A model generated the notes under the pieces. The model made no database searches. It had not been told where the DNA came from and saw nothing but the letters and a program-made list of their open reading frames with translations. From Veillonellales bacterium (GTDB taxonomy: Bacteria; Bacillota; Negativicutes; JAAYSF01): DNA of 38,662 bases. Position numbers and translations under genes: made by a program. Positions within the stretch are counted from its first letter, which is position 1, and each line of letters starts with the position of its first letter. The stretch spans positions 1 to 38,662 of the forward strand of contig JBDKTO010000070.1 of assembly GCA_039680175.1 (NCBI GenBank), in the 5' to 3' direction. Shown here piece after piece: positions 23,500 through 38,662 of this stretch.

Positions 23500-23556
23500 A
23501 AAAAGAGGTTGTTGCGTAGCGAAAAAAATCGTTGGCAACAGCCCCTTTTTATTTAT
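23500..23556. terminator. Probable bidirectional terminator between convergent genes
   Basis: AAAAGAGGTTGTTGC pairs with GGCAACAGCCCCTTTT across a loop, with A and T tracts on either side, so it could serve both the asparaginase gene and the minus-strand gene. Confidence 0.7.
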
Positions 23557-24239
23557 TTGTCATCAGGGTGCGGCATGTGGAAGTGTCCTCCCCAATGATG
23601 GGGAAAAGCCGGCCGTACATCCTGTAAATCTTGTTTAAAAGTGTCGGAGTCAACTCCCAGATTGTCGGCCACATCCCGCCAGGTATTGTTGATCTTTTTC
23701 TCATTAAGGACATCGTTGATTGAACTTCCTGTATTTTGCGCCAATTCATTGGCCATGGCAATATCCCGGGGATGATAGCCCTGCTGCAGCAGGTCAAGGA
23801 CAGCTTCTTTGTCCATGCCCAGCTTGGTGTTAAGGCGGGCAGCGGCGATGTTTTGTCTGGCAGCTTTTATTTGTTCTTTGGTAATGCCCAATTTTTCGGC
23901 TACATCCCGCCAAGTGTTGTCGGTTGTTTTATAACTGATTACTTCATCCATGGATTTGCCGCTGGCATTGGCTAGAAAGGCAGCCCGGCTGATATCGCGG
24001 AAATTCATGCCTTTAGCCTGATACTGCAGGATAGAATCCTGACTAACGCTCAGGTCTTCCGACAGGCGCTGGGCCATCTGCTCCGGCGTAGGCTTCTGAT
24101 GCTGGCATTGCCGGTAGGCCGGACGGCTATCACGGTCGTTATTTTCGGCAGCGTTGACCAAGAATGGGGCTGATGCTCCGGCCAGAATGAATGTTCCGGC
24201 CAAAATTCCGGCAAGAGTTTTTTTAGATAGTATTTTCAT
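23553..24239 (-). CDS. Secreted protein with two ~60-residue repeats and a His-rich tail
   Basis: A 228-residue protein not assigned to a named family. A signal peptide (about 1-30, ...GASAPFLVNA/AENN) indicates export. Two homologous helical repeats lie at about 63-123 and 140-200; each has an RDI segment (NFRDISRAAFLANASG; HPRDIAMANELAQNTG) and ends in NTWRDVA..LG (NTWRDVAEKLGIT; NTWRDVADNLGVD). The last 16 residues are rich in His, Pro and Gly (PHHWGGHFHMPHPDD), a possible metal-binding tail. GGAGGGATT lies 5-13 nt upstream. It follows a response regulator/kinase pair on the same strand and has a promoter with an 11-bp direct repeat, suggesting control by that pair. An envelope-stress or metal accessory role, like CpxP or ZraP beside their two-component systems, is only an analogy. 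Confidence 0.8.
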   Translation of the reverse strand: MKILSKKTLAGILAGTFILAGASAPFLVNAAENNDRDSRPAYRQCQHQKPTPEQMAQRLSEDLSVSQDSILQYQAKGMNFRDISRAAFLANASGKSMDEVISYKTTDNTWRDVAEKLGITKEQIKAARQNIAAARLNTKLGMDKEAVLDLLQQGYHPRDIAMANELAQNTGSSINDVLNEKKINNTWRDVADNLGVDSDTFKQDLQDVRPAFPHHWGGHFHMPHPDDK

Positions 24240-24333: not shown

Positions 24334-25749
24334 TTATTCAGCCAGGACAACGGGCAGGGTAAAGGTAAAGGTGGTTTCTTCCTCCGGAATGCTTTTGACG
24401 CTGATATCGCCGCCCATGGCGACAACAAGTTTTTTCGTAATGGCCAGCCCCAGGCCGGTGCCGCCGTCCTTGCGTGAGCGGGATTTTTCCACCCGGTAAA
24501 ATCGATCCCAGATATAAGGCAGATCGGCGGCGGGAATGCCGTGGCCCCGGTTGCTTACAGTGATGGCAATCATGCTGCTGCCGTCAGGGTGAATGCTGAT
24601 GCCAATGGAAGTGTTAGCCGGGGCGTAGCGAATCGCGTTGCTGAGCAGATTCAGCAGCACTTGGGCAAGACGGTCCGGGTCAGCCCAGACAGCAGGTAAA
24701 AAGGAAGGAAGCTTTGTGTCCAAAAATAGATTTTTTTCTGCCAGGAGAGGGGTTTGCTTTTCCAATTCAGCAGGCAGAAAAAGGGCCAGATTAATCTTCT
24801 CTTTTACAATCCCCAGCTCACCGGCTTCTAGTTGGGCCATATCCAGCAGATCACGGATTAACCGGTCGATACGGTGGGTTTCGCTGACAATGGAATTCAG
24901 GTAACGCTGCTGCTGCTCCGGAGTGGTAACCAGACCGTCCTGGATGGCTTCGGTCAGGGCCTGAATAGAGGCTACCGGCGTTTTGAGTTCGTGGGATACA
25001 TTGGCCAGAAAGTCCCGCCGGTTTTGCTCCGTATGAGCAAGGGAAGCAGCCATGTTGTTAAACGTATTTCCTAAGCTGCCGATTTCATCATCGTTGGTGA
25101 TATGGATGCGGCTTTCGTAGTTGCCCTTGGCGAAGTTATGGGCGGCCCGGCTGATGGCGGCAATGGGTTTGGTCAGGCCGCGGGACATAAATAAGCCGAC
25201 GGCGGCAGCAATGGCAATTCCCAGCAGCAAGGCATAAAAAAGTAATTGTTCCAAGGCATCGATGGTTTTATTGACGCCGGTAATCGGCGCATATAGAAAT
25301 AATGCGGTTGGTGTTTGCATTCCCGGGACAGGCAGGGCAATAACAATGGAAGGATCGGCTTGATGATGGGAAGTGCGTACCCAGGACTGAGGTGTGCCGG
25401 CAAACAGTTCATTGCTTTTCGCTGCCACATCCGGGGGGGCTCCTTTTTTCAGCCACCTTTCGGGCGGCTTTCCTGCCAGAATCGTTTCGTCCCGGTCACT
25501 GAGCCACATCATGGAGCCGACTAAATCACCTAAAATTTTCAGTGTGGCGTCAGAGGGCATTCGGCCTTCTCCTAAGGCGGGGGACATCAGGGCAATGGCG
25601 AAGCTGCCTTTTTGCATCAGGTCATCCCGCTTATTTTCCACCACATGCTGTCGTATTAGAAAGGTCATTAACATCCCCAGAGTGATGGTGCTAATCAGGA
25701 TTACGGCAATATGGGACAATAGCAGCTTACTAAATATAGAACGGCTCAT
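24334..25749 (-). CDS. Membrane sensor histidine kinase
   Basis: A 471-residue two-component kinase. TM1 is near residues 8-31, a sensor region of about 130 residues lies outside the membrane, TM2 is near 168-188, and a HAMP domain follows (to about 240). The H-box is FLANVSHELKTPVASIQ with phospho-acceptor His253; the N-box LLNLLSNAIRYAP and G-boxes (HGIPAADLPYIWDRFYRVE; GGTGLGLAITKKLV) complete the ATPase. It autophosphorylates and passes phosphate to the regulator encoded just upstream, with which it overlaps by ATGA. The sensor region has no family I recognise, so the stimulus is unknown. No PAS domain is visible, which argues against PhoR. Confidence 0.94.
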   Translation of the reverse strand: MSRSIFSKLLLSHIAVILISTITLGMLMTFLIRQHVVENKRDDLMQKGSFAIALMSPALGEGRMPSDATLKILGDLVGSMMWLSDRDETILAGKPPERWLKKGAPPDVAAKSNELFAGTPQSWVRTSHHQADPSIVIALPVPGMQTPTALFLYAPITGVNKTIDALEQLLFYALLLGIAIAAAVGLFMSRGLTKPIAAISRAAHNFAKGNYESRIHITNDDEIGSLGNTFNNMAASLAHTEQNRRDFLANVSHELKTPVASIQALTEAIQDGLVTTPEQQQRYLNSIVSETHRIDRLIRDLLDMAQLEAGELGIVKEKINLALFLPAELEKQTPLLAEKNLFLDTKLPSFLPAVWADPDRLAQVLLNLLSNAIRYAPANTSIGISIHPDGSSMIAITVSNRGHGIPAADLPYIWDRFYRVEKSRSRKDGGTGLGLAITKKLVVAMGGDISVKSIPEEETTFTFTLPVVLAE

Positions 25750-26423
25750 TTGGCAACCGCCTCGAACTTATAGCCTATGCCCCAGACAGTGTGAATATAG
25801 GTAAAACGCTCGCTGTTAATTTTCTGCCGCAGACGCTTAATGGTAGCATCCACAGTGCGGTCGTCACCGCCAAAATCGTAACCCCACACATTGGTCAACA
25901 GCTGTTCCCGGGAAAAAGAAATACGGGGATGCCGTAGCAAAAACAGCAGCAGATCGAATTCCTTTGGTGACAGGGTGATGGGACGACCATCCTGCATGAC
26001 CGACTGCCGGGCCGGATTTACAGCCAGTCCGGAATCTTTGAGACTAAAACCCGTATCCTCAAGCAGCCCGCTGCGCCGCAGTACGGCTTTGATCCGGGCT
26101 ACCAGTTCCCGGGGACTGAACGGCTTGGTAACATAGTCGTCAGCGCCAAGGGAAAATCCGGTCATTTTATCCAGCTCGGCACTTTTCGCTGTGAGGAAAA
26201 TGACCGGGACGGGACGTTTGATAGAGCGGCAGATATCCCAGCCGGATAATTTTGGCAGCATGACATCCAGCAGCAGCAGATCAGGCCGATGCTGTGTTTC
26301 GATATCCAGAGCCTGGTCGCCGTCGCCGGCTGTAAAGACGATAAACCCCTCCTTTTCCAGATAGAGCTGTACAACTTCACAGATATTCGGCTCATCATCG
26401 GCAATTAAAATTTTTATACTCAT
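25746..26423 (-). CDS. OmpR/PhoB-family response regulator
   Basis: A 225-residue regulator. The receiver domain (1-120) has acidic pocket DDE at 9-11, phospho-acceptor Asp53 (LLLLDVMLPKLSG), Thr78 (VIFLTAK) and Lys100 (DDYVTKPFSP). The C-terminal winged helix carries LSPKEFDLLLFLLRHP and RTVDATIKRLRQKI, the recognition helix region. It is transcribed divergently from the panC side, and its stop overlaps the kinase start (ATGA). Its likely target is the 11-bp direct repeat before the secreted-protein gene at the end of the same strand cluster. TAGCAGGAGGTT gives a strong ribosome site. Confidence 0.95.
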   Translation of the reverse strand: MSIKILIADDEPNICEVVQLYLEKEGFIVFTAGDGDQALDIETQHRPDLLLLDVMLPKLSGWDICRSIKRPVPVIFLTAKSAELDKMTGFSLGADDYVTKPFSPRELVARIKAVLRRSGLLEDTGFSLKDSGLAVNPARQSVMQDGRPITLSPKEFDLLLFLLRHPRISFSREQLLTNVWGYDFGGDDRTVDATIKRLRQKINSERFTYIHTVWGIGYKFEAVAK

Positions 26424-26439
26424 AATAACCTCCTGCTAC

Positions 26440-26468
26440 TTGTCCGTTGTTCGGGAAAATGGTATCAT
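26440..26468 (+). promoter_or_regulatory. Promoter of the structured RNA upstream of panC
   Basis: TTGTCC (26440-26445), 17-nt spacer and TATCAT (26463-26468). The start of transcription would fall near 26475, just before the structured segment. Confidence 0.5.
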
Positions 26469-26474
26469 AGACAG

Positions 26475-26701
26475 AGAAATAAACCAAGGGCGGCACCGGA
26501 ATGGGCCGTACCCAGTAAGGCAAGTTTTCATAATTTCATATTCTATCAACCGCTTAGATCCCGTGGGACTGAGACGGAATGTAAAAGGATCATTTTGTTG
26601 GTTACTCGGGTTGTCTTGTGTTGCTCTGCTTTGCCAAGGCTGCCCCATAACGGATGATGGTTCCCTGCCTTCCTGTTGATGTGAAACGGGAGGGTATTTT
26701 T
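26475..26701 (+). ncRNA. Candidate structured RNA, 6S-like rod, ending in a terminator before panC
   Basis: This ~300-nt gap between the regulator and panC has no gene but folds into one long rod. Visible pairings are GGC/GG/ACC (26489-26497) with GGT/CC/GCC (26659-26669), ATGGGC (26501-26506) with GCCCCAT (26642-26648), GGCAAG (26519-26524) with CTTTGCC (26629-26635), CAACC (26547-26551) with GGTTG (26609-26613), and GATCC (26557-26561) with GGATC (26587-26591). Between the third and fourth helices is a large unpaired bubble (26525-26546 opposite 26614-26628). A closing stem, a central bubble, an apical stem and ~180 nt are the hallmarks of 6S RNA, which binds sigma-70/sigma-A RNA polymerase. 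It has its own promoter and a terminator. A panC leader element is the alternative. Folding was done by eye. Confidence 0.5.
26668..26701 (+). terminator. Terminator between the structured RNA and panC
   Basis: CCTTCC-T-GTT (26668-26677) pairs with AACGGGAGG (26685-26693), one bulged T, followed by GTATTTTTA. It either ends an independent small RNA or attenuates panC. Confidence 0.65.
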
Positions 26702-26723
26702 AGTTTACAGGGAGGGACATACA

Positions 26724-27578
26724 TTGAAAGTGATCAGTCAGGTAGCAGAGCTTCGGATGCTGTTGAAAAATGCCAGGCAGGCGAACCAAACGGTAGGCCT
26801 GGTGCCGACTATGGGATACCTGCATGAGGGACATCTCACCCTTATGCGGCAGGCAAAGCGGGAACAGGATGTTGTTGTCGCCAGTATTTTTGTGAATCCC
26901 CTGCAATTTGGGCCGAATGAAGATTACGCTGTTTATCCCCGGAATTTGGAACGGGACGGTGAACTGGCAGCCGGTGCAGGGGTGGATATTTTATTTACTC
27001 CCCGGGTAGAGGATATGTATCCTCAGGGTTACGAAAATGTGCTGTCCTTTGTGGAAGTTACCGGCATTACGAAAAAGCTTTGCGGGGCTTCCCGGCCGGG
27101 ACACTTTCGGGGTGTCACTACGGTAGTTGCCAAACTGTTTAACATTGCCCGGCCGGATGCCGCTTATTTTGGTCAAAAGGACGCCCAGCAGGTTGCGGTT
27201 ATCAAGCGTATGGTTGCCGATTTAAACATGGATATTCGCATTGTCGCCGTACCTATCGTACGGGAAGCAGACGGACTGGCCTTATCTTCCCGCAACGTAT
27301 TTTTAAATCCGGCGGAACGGCAGGCGGCTTTGGTCCTGCACCGCTCCCTGGAACTTGCCGGTGATCTTCTTGCCGCCGGACAACGGGATGCGGCAGGTAT
27401 CAAGGCCGCTATGGCCGGTTTGATAAACAAAGAGCCTTTGGCTGCTATTGAGTATATTTCGCTATGCGATTTAAAATTCCTGGAAGAGTTGGCTGAAATC
27501 GAATCGGCTGCATTGATAGCAATTGCTGTTAAAATTGGTAAAACAAGGCTGATTGATAACCGGATATGGAGGGGATAA
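26724..27578 (+). CDS. panC: Pantothenate synthetase PanC
   Basis: A 284-residue cytosolic enzyme joining pantoate and beta-alanine with ATP to make pantothenate, the CoA precursor. Signature blocks are [14 protein letters not shown] (HxGH nucleotidyl-transferase motif), [37 protein letters not shown] and the KMSKS-like [12 protein letters not shown]. The start is TTG with CAGGGAGGG upstream. panD follows 1 nt after its stop; panB (pantoate supply) is missing from this cluster. A terminator-like hairpin lies between its promoter region and the start, so either a second promoter or antitermination is needed. Confidence 0.96.
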
Positions 27579-27579
27579 C

Positions 27580-27963
27580 ATGTTTCGGACCATCATGAAA
27601 TCGAAACTGCATCGGGCTACGGTAACCGAAGCCTGTTTGAATTATGTAGGCAGTATTACCATCGACGAAGATCTGATGGATTCGGCCAATATTTTTACCA
27701 ATGAAAAGGTACAGATTGTAAATAATAATAATGGCGCAAGGCTGGAGACGTATGTGATTCCCGGGGAGCGGGGGTCGGGAGTGATTTGTCTGAATGGCGC
27801 CGCCGCTCGTTTAGTACAGCCCGGTGATACGGTGATTATTATTACTTATGCCGTAATGGAGGAACGGGAAGCTAAGATTTTTCAGCCAACAGTGGTATTT
27901 TTGAATGAGAAAAATCAGATTTCCGGCAGGAAGACAGTTGAAAACCATGGAGAAATCGGCTGA
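27580..27963 (+). CDS. panD: Aspartate 1-decarboxylase PanD
   Basis: A 127-residue pyruvoyl enzyme making beta-alanine from aspartate. The self-cleavage site is visible in [10 protein letters not shown] (Gly-Ser, about residues 24-25), where the Ser becomes the pyruvoyl group. Other conserved parts are [10 protein letters not shown] and [17 protein letters not shown]. The ATG at 27580 (TGGAGGGG 5-12 nt upstream) is one base after the panC stop, so the two are co-transcribed and their products feed the same reaction. Confidence 0.96.
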
Positions 27964-28069: not shown

Positions 28070-29056
28070 ATGGAATTGCGTACTCGCATACTGCAGATTT
28101 TGCGCCAGCGTTTTGGTGAATACATATCAGGGGAAGAATTAAGTCAGCAATTTGGCGTATCCCGGACGGCGATTTGGAAGCATATCCGGGAATTAAAGCA
28201 GGCAGGTTATGATATTGAAGCTCATTCCCGCCGGGGATACTGTCTGCGGCAGGCTCCCGATCTGCTGCTTCCGGCCGAAATACGAGCCGGCTTGCAAACG
28301 ACAGTTTTTGGCCGGGAGACTCATTATTTTTCTGTTACTGAATCAACGAACATCGCTGCGAAAAGATTGGCGGCGGAAGGTTGTCCGGAAGGTACGATTG
28401 TGGTAGCGGAATCTCAGCAGAGCGGCAGGGGAAGATTATCCCGGGGGTGGTTTTCTCCTTTTGGCAAGGGAATATGGCTGTCGATAGTCCTTAGACCTCC
28501 CTTTAGTCCGCAGGATGCCCCTAAGTGTACTTTACTGGCAGCGGTCGCCCTTAACCGGGCTATCCGCAAGGTAGGCCGGATAACGTGCGGGATCAAGTGG
28601 CCGAATGATATTTTGTATCAAGGGAAAAAATTGGTCGGAATATTGACGGAGATGAGTGCCGAAATGGATGCGATTAACTATGTCGTTATTGGCGCGGGAA
28701 TTAATGTCAATGTGGCTCAGAATGATTTTCCGGCGGATTTATCCCCCATTGCGACCTCGGTGTCGGCAGCCGCCGGTCAGCCGGTAGACCGGGTGATTTT
28801 ACTGTGCGAAATTCTTCATCAGCTGGAGCTGAGTTATCAAACAGCCCTACAGCAGGGTTTTGAACAAATCCTTGCTGATTGGCGGGAACAATCCATTACC
28901 CTGGGACAAACTGTCGATGTATTTGGCCTCAATCATAACTTTAGCGGGATTGCTCAGGATATTGACGGAGAGGGAGCTTTGCTGGTTAAAACAGCCGACG
29001 GCATCGTGCGGGTTCTGGCCGGTGATGTTTCCATCAGGCCGCGGCCGGCGGACTAA
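28070..29056 (+). CDS. birA: Bifunctional biotin-protein ligase / biotin operon repressor BirA
   Basis: A 328-residue protein with an N-terminal winged helix (SGEELSQQFGVSRTAIWKHI) and a ligase domain with the biotinyl-5'-AMP loop QQSGRGRLSRGW, the core strand IKWPNDILYQGKKLVGIL and a C-terminal SH3-like domain (GIAQDIDGEGALLV). It attaches biotin to carboxylases and, with the DNA-binding domain, represses biotin genes. The next gene, bioY, is a biotin transporter and a likely target. The ATG at 28070 touches the G-rich ribosome site, so the in-frame TTG at 28076 could be the true start (two residues shorter). Confidence 0.94.
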   Translation: MELRTRILQILRQRFGEYISGEELSQQFGVSRTAIWKHIRELKQAGYDIEAHSRRGYCLRQAPDLLLPAEIRAGLQTTVFGRETHYFSVTESTNIAAKRLAAEGCPEGTIVVAESQQSGRGRLSRGWFSPFGKGIWLSIVLRPPFSPQDAPKCTLLAAVALNRAIRKVGRITCGIKWPNDILYQGKKLVGILTEMSAEMDAINYVVIGAGINVNVAQNDFPADLSPIATSVSAAAGQPVDRVILLCEILHQLELSYQTALQQGFEQILADWREQSITLGQTVDVFGLNHNFSGIAQDIDGEGALLVKTADGIVRVLAGDVSIRPRPAD

Positions 29057-29099
29057 TAGAATAGCAGCAATCGGGAACAGGAAAGGAGGCGAAGAAAGC

Positions 29100-29660
29100 G
29101 TGGCAGTAAGAAATATGGCATTATGCGGTCTATTCGCAGCGCTATTGGCTTTAAGTTCACAGGTCGTGATTCCCTTAGGCCCGGTTCCCCATACGCTGCA
29201 AATCTTTTTTGTACTTCTGGCCGGTATGATTTTGGGCAGCCGGTTTGGCGCCATCAGCGTTTTGGTCTGGGTGGCTTTGGGTATTTTTGGATTGCCTGTT
29301 TTTGCTCAGGGGAAAGCCGGTTTGTCGGTAGTGGCCGGGCCTACCGGTGGCTTTTTGCTCGGGTTTGTCTGCTGTGCTTTTGTAGTGGGGTGGCTGACGG
29401 AACGGACAGAAGGTTCCTATGGCCGGACGGCGGCAGTTATGCTGCTGGGCTTGGCGATTGCTTATGGAATTGGTTTAATCGGATTTATGTTCAGTTTTAA
29501 ATATTTTTTGGCAAAGCCCATGAACTGGTATACGGCAGCTACTTTGGCTGTTATTCCGTTCTTGCCCTTTGATTTAATAAAAACATTGATGGCCGCCTAT
29601 ATTGGAGTGCGGATTCGTCGGGCGCTGATTCATTCCGGACTGGTCGGTACCCATAAATGA
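29100..29660 (+). CDS. bioY: Biotin transporter substrate-binding component BioY
   Basis: A 186-residue protein with about six membrane segments, the S-component of a biotin ECF transporter. Recognisable blocks are NMALCGLFAALLALSSQ, IPLGPVPHTLQIFFVLLAG and VVAGPTGGFLLGFV, the last being the BioY signature. The energising EcfA/EcfT proteins are not in this window, so it would use shared modules or work alone. The GTG at 29100 has AAGGAGG 10 nt upstream; a far longer frame reading back into birA is rejected because that part overlaps birA. Gene order birA-bioY supports biotin-responsive control. Confidence 0.94.
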   Translation: MAVRNMALCGLFAALLALSSQVVIPLGPVPHTLQIFFVLLAGMILGSRFGAISVLVWVALGIFGLPVFAQGKAGLSVVAGPTGGFLLGFVCCAFVVGWLTERTEGSYGRTAAVMLLGLAIAYGIGLIGFMFSFKYFLAKPMNWYTAATLAVIPFLPFDLIKTLMAAYIGVRIRRALIHSGLVGTHK

Positions 29661-29729
29661 TTATTTTCTTTTTATCCGGGGAATATAACGTATACAATGG
29701 GGATAAACGTGCGTGGGAGGACTTTATCG

Positions 29730-30494
29730 ATGCTTTTAGTGTTTGATATCGGCAATAGTAATATTGTGCTGGGAATGTACGATGATCATCAATTGCTGCA
29801 GCATTGGCGGATTTCTACCGACAGGTTGAAGACCGGCGATGAGTATGGGATGTTGTTGAATAATTTGTTCAACTATGCGGGGATGACGATACAAGATGTG
29901 ACAGCAGTTATTATTTCTTCCGTTGTGCCGCCGCTGGTGGTACCAATTTCAAAAATGTGCCAGCGCTATTTTGGTGTGGATCCATTAGTGGTGGGACCGG
30001 GTATCAAAACCGGAATTTGTATTAAATATGAAAATCCCCGGGAGGTGGGTGCCGACCGGATTGTGAATGCAGTGGCGGCTTATGATAAATTTGGCGGGCC
30101 GCTGATTATTATCGACTTCGGTACGGCGACAACCTTCTGTGTCGTCGCAAAAAACGGCGATTATCTAGGCGGCGCTATTGCACCGGGAATCGGAATTTCC
30201 ACCGAGGCATTGTTCCAGCGGGCGGCGAAGCTGCCCCGGATTGAACTGGTCACACCGAAAACCGTGATTTGCCGCAATACGGTAGCCAGTATGCAGTCCG
30301 GCATTATCTACGGATTCGCCGGACAGGTGGATGAAATTGTCCGCCGCATGAAAAAAGAGCTGGGCAGTGATGCTTATGTAGTGGCAACCGGTGGCCTGGC
30401 AAATATGATCGCCCATGAATCGTCGACGATTAATGTGGTGGAACATTTCTTAACACTGGAAGGCCTGCGAATTTTATACGAGCGGAATTCGTGA
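29730..30494 (+). CDS. coaX: Type III pantothenate kinase CoaX
   Basis: A 254-residue ASKHA-fold kinase for the first committed step from pantothenate to CoA. The phosphate loop is [32 protein letters not shown] and [20 protein letters not shown] (substrate and metal sites) are typical. Type III enzymes use a monovalent cation and are not inhibited by CoA. ATG 29730 is chosen because GGGAGG is 8-13 nt upstream; the frame extends back to 29697 without a ribosome site. Lying after panC-panD-birA-bioY, it belongs to a CoA/biotin cofactor neighbourhood. Confidence 0.95.

Positions 30495-38177: not shown

Positions 38178-38662
<485 letters not shown>

Follow-up and report, generated by a model that had tools for sequence, protein, structure and literature searches.

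Identification of a pan leader RNA upstream of panC

The leader that precedes panC in this Veillonellales bacterium is a typical, well-formed member of the known pan family of leader RNAs, which is already in Rfam. The gap in which it lies is probably a pantothenate operon's 5' leader that contains this element and has the build of a transcription attenuator. The DNA analyzed (hereafter the window) is the full 38,662-nt stretch of contig JBDKTO010000070.1, assembly GCA_039680175.1. Immediately before panC, approximately 300 nt (26424-26723) contain no convincing gene, in agreement with an earlier note on this DNA that had placed a geneless gap at this position. Upstream, the gap is bordered by a gene in divergent orientation (25746-26423, minus strand) for a response regulator of the OmpR type, and downstream the gene order is panC-panD-birA-bioY-coaX:

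26710-26715, plus strand: Shine-Dalgarno GGGAGG, 8 nt ahead of the start codon (sequence)
26724-27578, plus strand: panC, pantoate--beta-alanine ligase, TTG start (TIGR00018, 3e-108)
27580-27963, plus strand: panD, aspartate 1-decarboxylase (TIGR00223, 1.4e-54)
28070-29056, plus strand: birA, biotin ligase/repressor (TIGR00121, 2.3e-63)
28860-29660, plus strand: bioY, biotin ECF S component (PF02632, 3.7e-41)
29697-30494, plus strand: coaX, type III pantothenate kinase (NF009847, 2.2e-127)

The 5' part of the listed bioY frame overlaps birA, and its true start is located further downstream. Elsewhere in the window, beside a two-component system, positions 23553-24239 (minus strand) encode an exported-looking 228-aa protein with the internal repeat TWRDVAEKLGI / TWRDVADNLGV, for which no confident Pfam or NCBIfam family was found.

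When the whole window was scanned against all of Rfam, two matches reached gathering level. One, at 38178-38662, is the initial part of a 16S rRNA gene, which is cut off by the window end. The other is the pan motif (RF01749) at 26487-26581 on the plus strand, which scores 55.6 bits against a gathering threshold of 36.2, with an E value of 3.3e-7, and covers model positions 1-92 of 92. In addition to this score, the element has the tandem hairpins with two conserved bulged adenines each, the panC and panD genes downstream and the covariation that characterize the family. It does not differ from other pan elements in the motif itself; what sets the locus apart is a genome seemingly without panB and a gene row that extends to birA-bioY-coaX. 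The earlier note had proposed either a 6S RNA or an unrecognised riboregulator of pantothenate synthesis, and had named pan among the models to be checked. The role as a leader of pantothenate genes stands, whereas the element is not unrecognised, being RF01749 (PMC2864571). A second site in the genome (C117:64341) reaches 17.8 bits, below the cut-off, and precedes rmlA/rmlC-like genes; it was not retained.

A 6S RNA would be a free RNA of ~180 nt, an open-promoter mimic bound by RNA polymerase, and the likeness to 6S RNA/SsrS (RF00013) lies in a structured, geneless stretch of ~200 nt flanked by a promoter and a terminator. The difference is that here the stretch is a leader, with a Shine-Dalgarno sequence and start codon right behind it. 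The Rfam search gave no 6S match in the window, and none in the gap even at E values up to 10. Two 6S RNA genes were found on other contigs of the same genome (C45:72457-72629 and C4:23398-23571, at 105.5 and 81.2 bits, respectively). Given the absence of a match in the gap and the location of both 6S genes elsewhere, we exclude 6S RNA, to which we assign next to no probability.

Promoter, folding and terminator of the leader

The promoter and terminator described in the earlier note are both found, and between them the leader can be divided as follows:

26440-26468, plus strand: probable sigma-70 promoter, -35-like TTGTCC, 17-nt spacer, extended -10 TGgTATCAT at 26460-26468 (9/12 match, TG before the -10)
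26487-26581, plus strand: pan motif, full length 1-92 (RF01749 covariance model; covariation)
26488-26512, plus strand: pan hairpin P1, 26488-26494 and 26496-26497 paired with 26503-26509 and 26511-26512 (Rfam alignment)
26513-26522, plus strand: P1-P2 spacer CAGTAAGGCA, candidate for the antiterminator strand of this locus (can form 9 pairs with 26666-26675, the 5' arm of the terminator)
26550-26577, plus strand: pan hairpin P2, 26550-26557 and 26559-26561 paired with 26566-26573 and 26575-26577 (Rfam alignment)
26578-26581, plus strand: pan 3' tail, AATG here and AaGG in the consensus, possible output strand (class-level complementarity)
26587-26663, plus strand: linker hairpin between pan and terminator (folding)
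26666-26701, plus strand: intrinsic terminator, stem 26666-26677 with 26685-26696 (12 pairs), 7-nt loop 26678-26684, T run 26697-26701 (pattern match, folding)

The bulged adenines are A26495 and A26510 in P1, and A26558 and A26574 in P2. From the position of the promoter, we infer that transcription starts near 26475. The long linker hairpin matches no Rfam family, and the distance from pan to the terminator is 84 nt here, compared with ~15-50 nt in most relatives.

Folding of 26440-26701 gives a long rod of -80.4 kcal/mol, but this is no more stable than expected (z -1.07): among 200 shuffled sequences, 27 reach the same stability. Moreover, the rod of ~180 nt with a central bubble, on which the 6S proposal had been based, appears only if promoter DNA (26440-26474) that would not be transcribed is folded too. 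When folding begins at the probable start, 26475, the minimum-energy structure is not a long rod but the separate hairpins P1 and P2, the linker hairpin and the terminator (z -1.17). Since shuffled sequences fold about as stably, stability of the whole RNA is no evidence for function; the features that greatly exceed chance are the pan motif within the leader and its covariation. The earlier note had looked to covariance support among relatives and to a discrete transcript as the observations that would decide its case. Strong covariation was found, yet covariation cannot by itself separate 6S RNA from a leader, and neither can a discrete transcript, because an attenuator would also give a discrete, prematurely ended RNA of ~225 nt.

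Conservation of the pan hairpins

To assess covariation, 36 diverse pan sequences from the host's class were aligned and 18 pairs were counted. Standard pairs account for 99.1% of the cells in these pairs. Two-sided, compensatory changes occur at 12 pairs and in 120 cells, a level reached by 0 of 500 shuffles and not approached by any slid register. All 8 counted pairs of P1 show compensatory change, with 99.7% of cells paired; in P2, 98.6% of cells are paired, 4 pairs show compensatory change and 3 pairs are invariant. The columns of all four bulged adenines are invariant in the 36 sequences, and the loops and spacer vary freely. At this locus, the pair that flanks the P1 bulge, usually U-A, is C-G.

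Survey of pan leaders in the host's class

A pan match at E <= 0.001 is present in 197 of 380 genomes of the class. We examined 134 pan leaders, of which 133 were counted for promoters and 128 for strand pairing. An extended -10 element (at least a 6/8 match) lies no more than 60 nt upstream in 93% of the 133 leaders compared with 34% of shuffles. Downstream, 93% of the 134 have a terminator within 150 nt, counted as a hairpin of at least -9 kcal/mol stability with a U run, compared with 3% of shuffles.

First downstream genes were grouped by blastp clustering, after which cluster representatives were named. The commonest first gene, at 51 loci (including L009, L017, L020, L021 and L024), encodes a PanS-like transporter of the BASS type, the representative of which matches the PanS model at 1.8e-87, below the equivalog cut-off. 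These are followed by 33 loci with Rossmann-type DUF2520 proteins, which we take to be PanG-like, 26 with PanC and 8 with PanB. Rarer first genes encode ECF S components (4 loci), PanF-type proteins (3 loci, the representative being over the cut-off of TIGR02119), PanD (2 loci) and BirA (2 loci). One of the DUF2520 genes precedes panB (locus L005). The two birA loci are L173 and L206, where birA is the first clear gene after pan although BirA belongs to biotin metabolism; the call at L173 is uncertain, as a PanC start is also visible near the terminator. In the window, too, birA and bioY lie within the row of genes from panC to coaX.

The only pan targets named by Weinberg et al. in 2010 were panB, panC and the aspartate decarboxylase gene (PMC2864571), and RNA-seq papers on Bacillus and Paenibacillus have since located the motif in the 5' UTRs of their pan operons (PMC4634765, PMC4342826, PMC5670726). 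In the papers that could be searched, we found no report of PanS-like, PanF, ECF S component, PanG-like or birA genes as pan targets, and the survey adds these to the list.

Candidate antiterminator strands

The succession of promoter, pan motif, terminator, Shine-Dalgarno sequence and gene is that of a transcription attenuator, and if the leader works as one, the terminator should have a competing strand. Across 128 loci, the terminator 5' arm finds its best partner in the P2 3' strand plus tail at 86 (mean z -1.10), and a pairing z below -1.64 is seen for this segment at 30% of loci, as opposed to 2-6% for P1, the spacer, the P2 5' strand and the linker. Native combinations of tail and arm fit better than exchanged ones (0 of 5000 permutations for the 128 loci and 72 of 5000 for 42 nonredundant loci, with relatedness only partly corrected). 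Pairing between tail and arm is strong where the terminator is of the GCCTTTC type (mean -9.8 kcal/mol). At the 27 loci with GCGCA-type terminators, own pairing is weak (-6.5) and improves with the arms of the other class (-8.1), so the tail-arm covariation resides mostly within the GCCTTTC class.

At the window locus, the tail pairs with the arm at -7.2 kcal/mol, no better than shuffled sequences (z -0.6), and a tail-arm antiterminator is thus unsupported here. Instead, the spacer CAGUAAGGCA (26513-26522) is predicted to pair with 26666-26675 at a probability of 0.97-1.0 while the RNA ends at 26676-26680, giving way to the terminator once the RNA reaches 26701. The z score of this pairing is -2.4, the spacer having been picked out of five segments tested. 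As a general antiterminator of pan leaders the spacer fails, with a mean z of 0.04, and it stays a candidate for the window locus alone. In the full leader, thermodynamics alone favor the terminator, so that an antiterminator would have to work through kinetics or with assistance.

The weak complement between tail and arm, together with the apparent loss of panB, would suit a pan element that has become a relic here, with the terminator serving as a constitutive attenuator or as part of an unrelated transcript. We regard this as improbable: the two hairpins are intact, as are the four bulged adenines and the compensatory C-G pair in P1, and promoter, terminator and Shine-Dalgarno sequence are well formed.

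In five loci with no nearby terminator (L176, L204, L213, L197 and L205), the tail reads GGAGG and is placed as a Shine-Dalgarno sequence for an ECF S component gene or a small gene before panF. Judging from this placement, these loci may represent a translational form of pan control.

Pantoate supply in the genome

Profile searches of the 121-contig draft genome gave no match to TIGR00222 for panB, only a sub-threshold hit to PF02548 (24.4 bits), and in the same draft neither a panE scoring above cut-off nor any relative of the L005 PanG-like protein was found. Both genomes of the same family carry panB. The genome does have panC, panD and coaX, and it encodes three transporters that are PanS-like (39-43% identity). 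In the work of Rodionov et al., which makes no mention of pan, operons of the panD-panC-panS kind are assigned to pantoate salvage, and the present gene set fits their salvage type with PanD and PanC but no PanB. The apparent lack of panB and panE suggests either pantoate salvage or a missing contig; the latter may apply, since the assembly is a draft of 121 contigs and, in genome G001, a pan-PanG-panB operon lies on a contig of just 3.2 kb.

Proposed mechanism and nature of the sensor

Most likely, the pan leader lowers the expression of pantothenate genes under ample supply of the vitamin or of CoA. In the model that we propose, RNA polymerase would start near 26475 and make the bulged-adenine hairpins P1 and P2, and a factor reporting pantothenate or CoA sufficiency would bind the pair. 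With the factor bound, the terminator at 26666-26701 would form and transcription would end as an RNA of ~225 nt; in its absence, an upstream strand would catch the 5' arm of the terminator and permit read-through into panC-panD-birA-bioY-coaX. The catching strand may be the P2 3' strand and tail in many relatives, and is more likely the P1-P2 spacer (26513-26522) at the window locus. That the bound state would be the off state follows from the overlap of the tail with the P2 3' strand, since a closed P2 would free the terminator. Use of the tail as a Shine-Dalgarno sequence would agree with this sign. Of the model, family membership, the conservation of the hairpins, the order from promoter through pan to terminator and the target genes are shown by the sequences, whereas the start site, the antiterminator, the sign of regulation and the kind of factor are inferred.

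Attenuators under protein control, such as the PyrR binding site, resemble pan in being operon leaders with protein-sized hairpins and a terminator before the first gene; the difference is that pan has two tandem hairpins with bulged adenines. The TPP, FMN and SAM riboswitches share with pan a conserved leader domain, a terminator and targets in vitamin pathways that include transporters, but pan has no large conserved junction or pocket.

The factor is most likely a small dimeric protein that would hold both hairpins, and it may possibly be a metabolite acting directly. The discoverers of pan likewise took its architecture to suggest a dimeric protein site (PMC2864571), and in the papers that could be searched we found no pan ligand or binding protein reported after 2010. 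A tentative alternative is that pan is a true riboswitch, in which the tandem hairpins themselves would bind a metabolite, be it pantothenate, CoA or a phospho-intermediate, and so act on the same terminator. The targets combine biosynthesis with several kinds of uptake gene, as a metabolite read-out would predict, and no CoA riboswitch is known, the classes still missing being perhaps hidden among orphan motifs (Breaker 2022, PMC9971707). Against this stand the very simple architecture of two similar small hairpins with no large conserved pocket, the free variation of loops and spacer, and the reading of the discoverers. Pan could also be the site at which an enzyme of the pathway binds its own mRNA, as every pan element precedes pathway genes and symmetric hairpins suit a dimer. 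We consider such autogenous control unlikely, because pan also precedes transporter genes, which better fits a common trans factor, and because the lack of detectable PanB in a genome with a well-conserved pan makes PanB itself an unlikely factor here.

A broader proposal, which we put forward with some reserve, is that pan may be the missing RNA that senses CoA or pantothenate (or the site of a CoA-sensing RNA-binding protein), that the P2 tail would act mostly as an antiterminator and as a Shine-Dalgarno sequence in transporter leaders, and that the regulon would include PanS, PanF and an ECF transporter beyond panBCD.

Significance

For annotation of this genome, a known regulatory element replaces a possible 6S call, and the control region of the operon is fixed. 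The output-strand model for pan is concrete and testable. Beyond this locus, pan is a conserved leader of a vitamin pathway, and its interest lies mainly in the sensor of the family, be it a protein or a metabolite.
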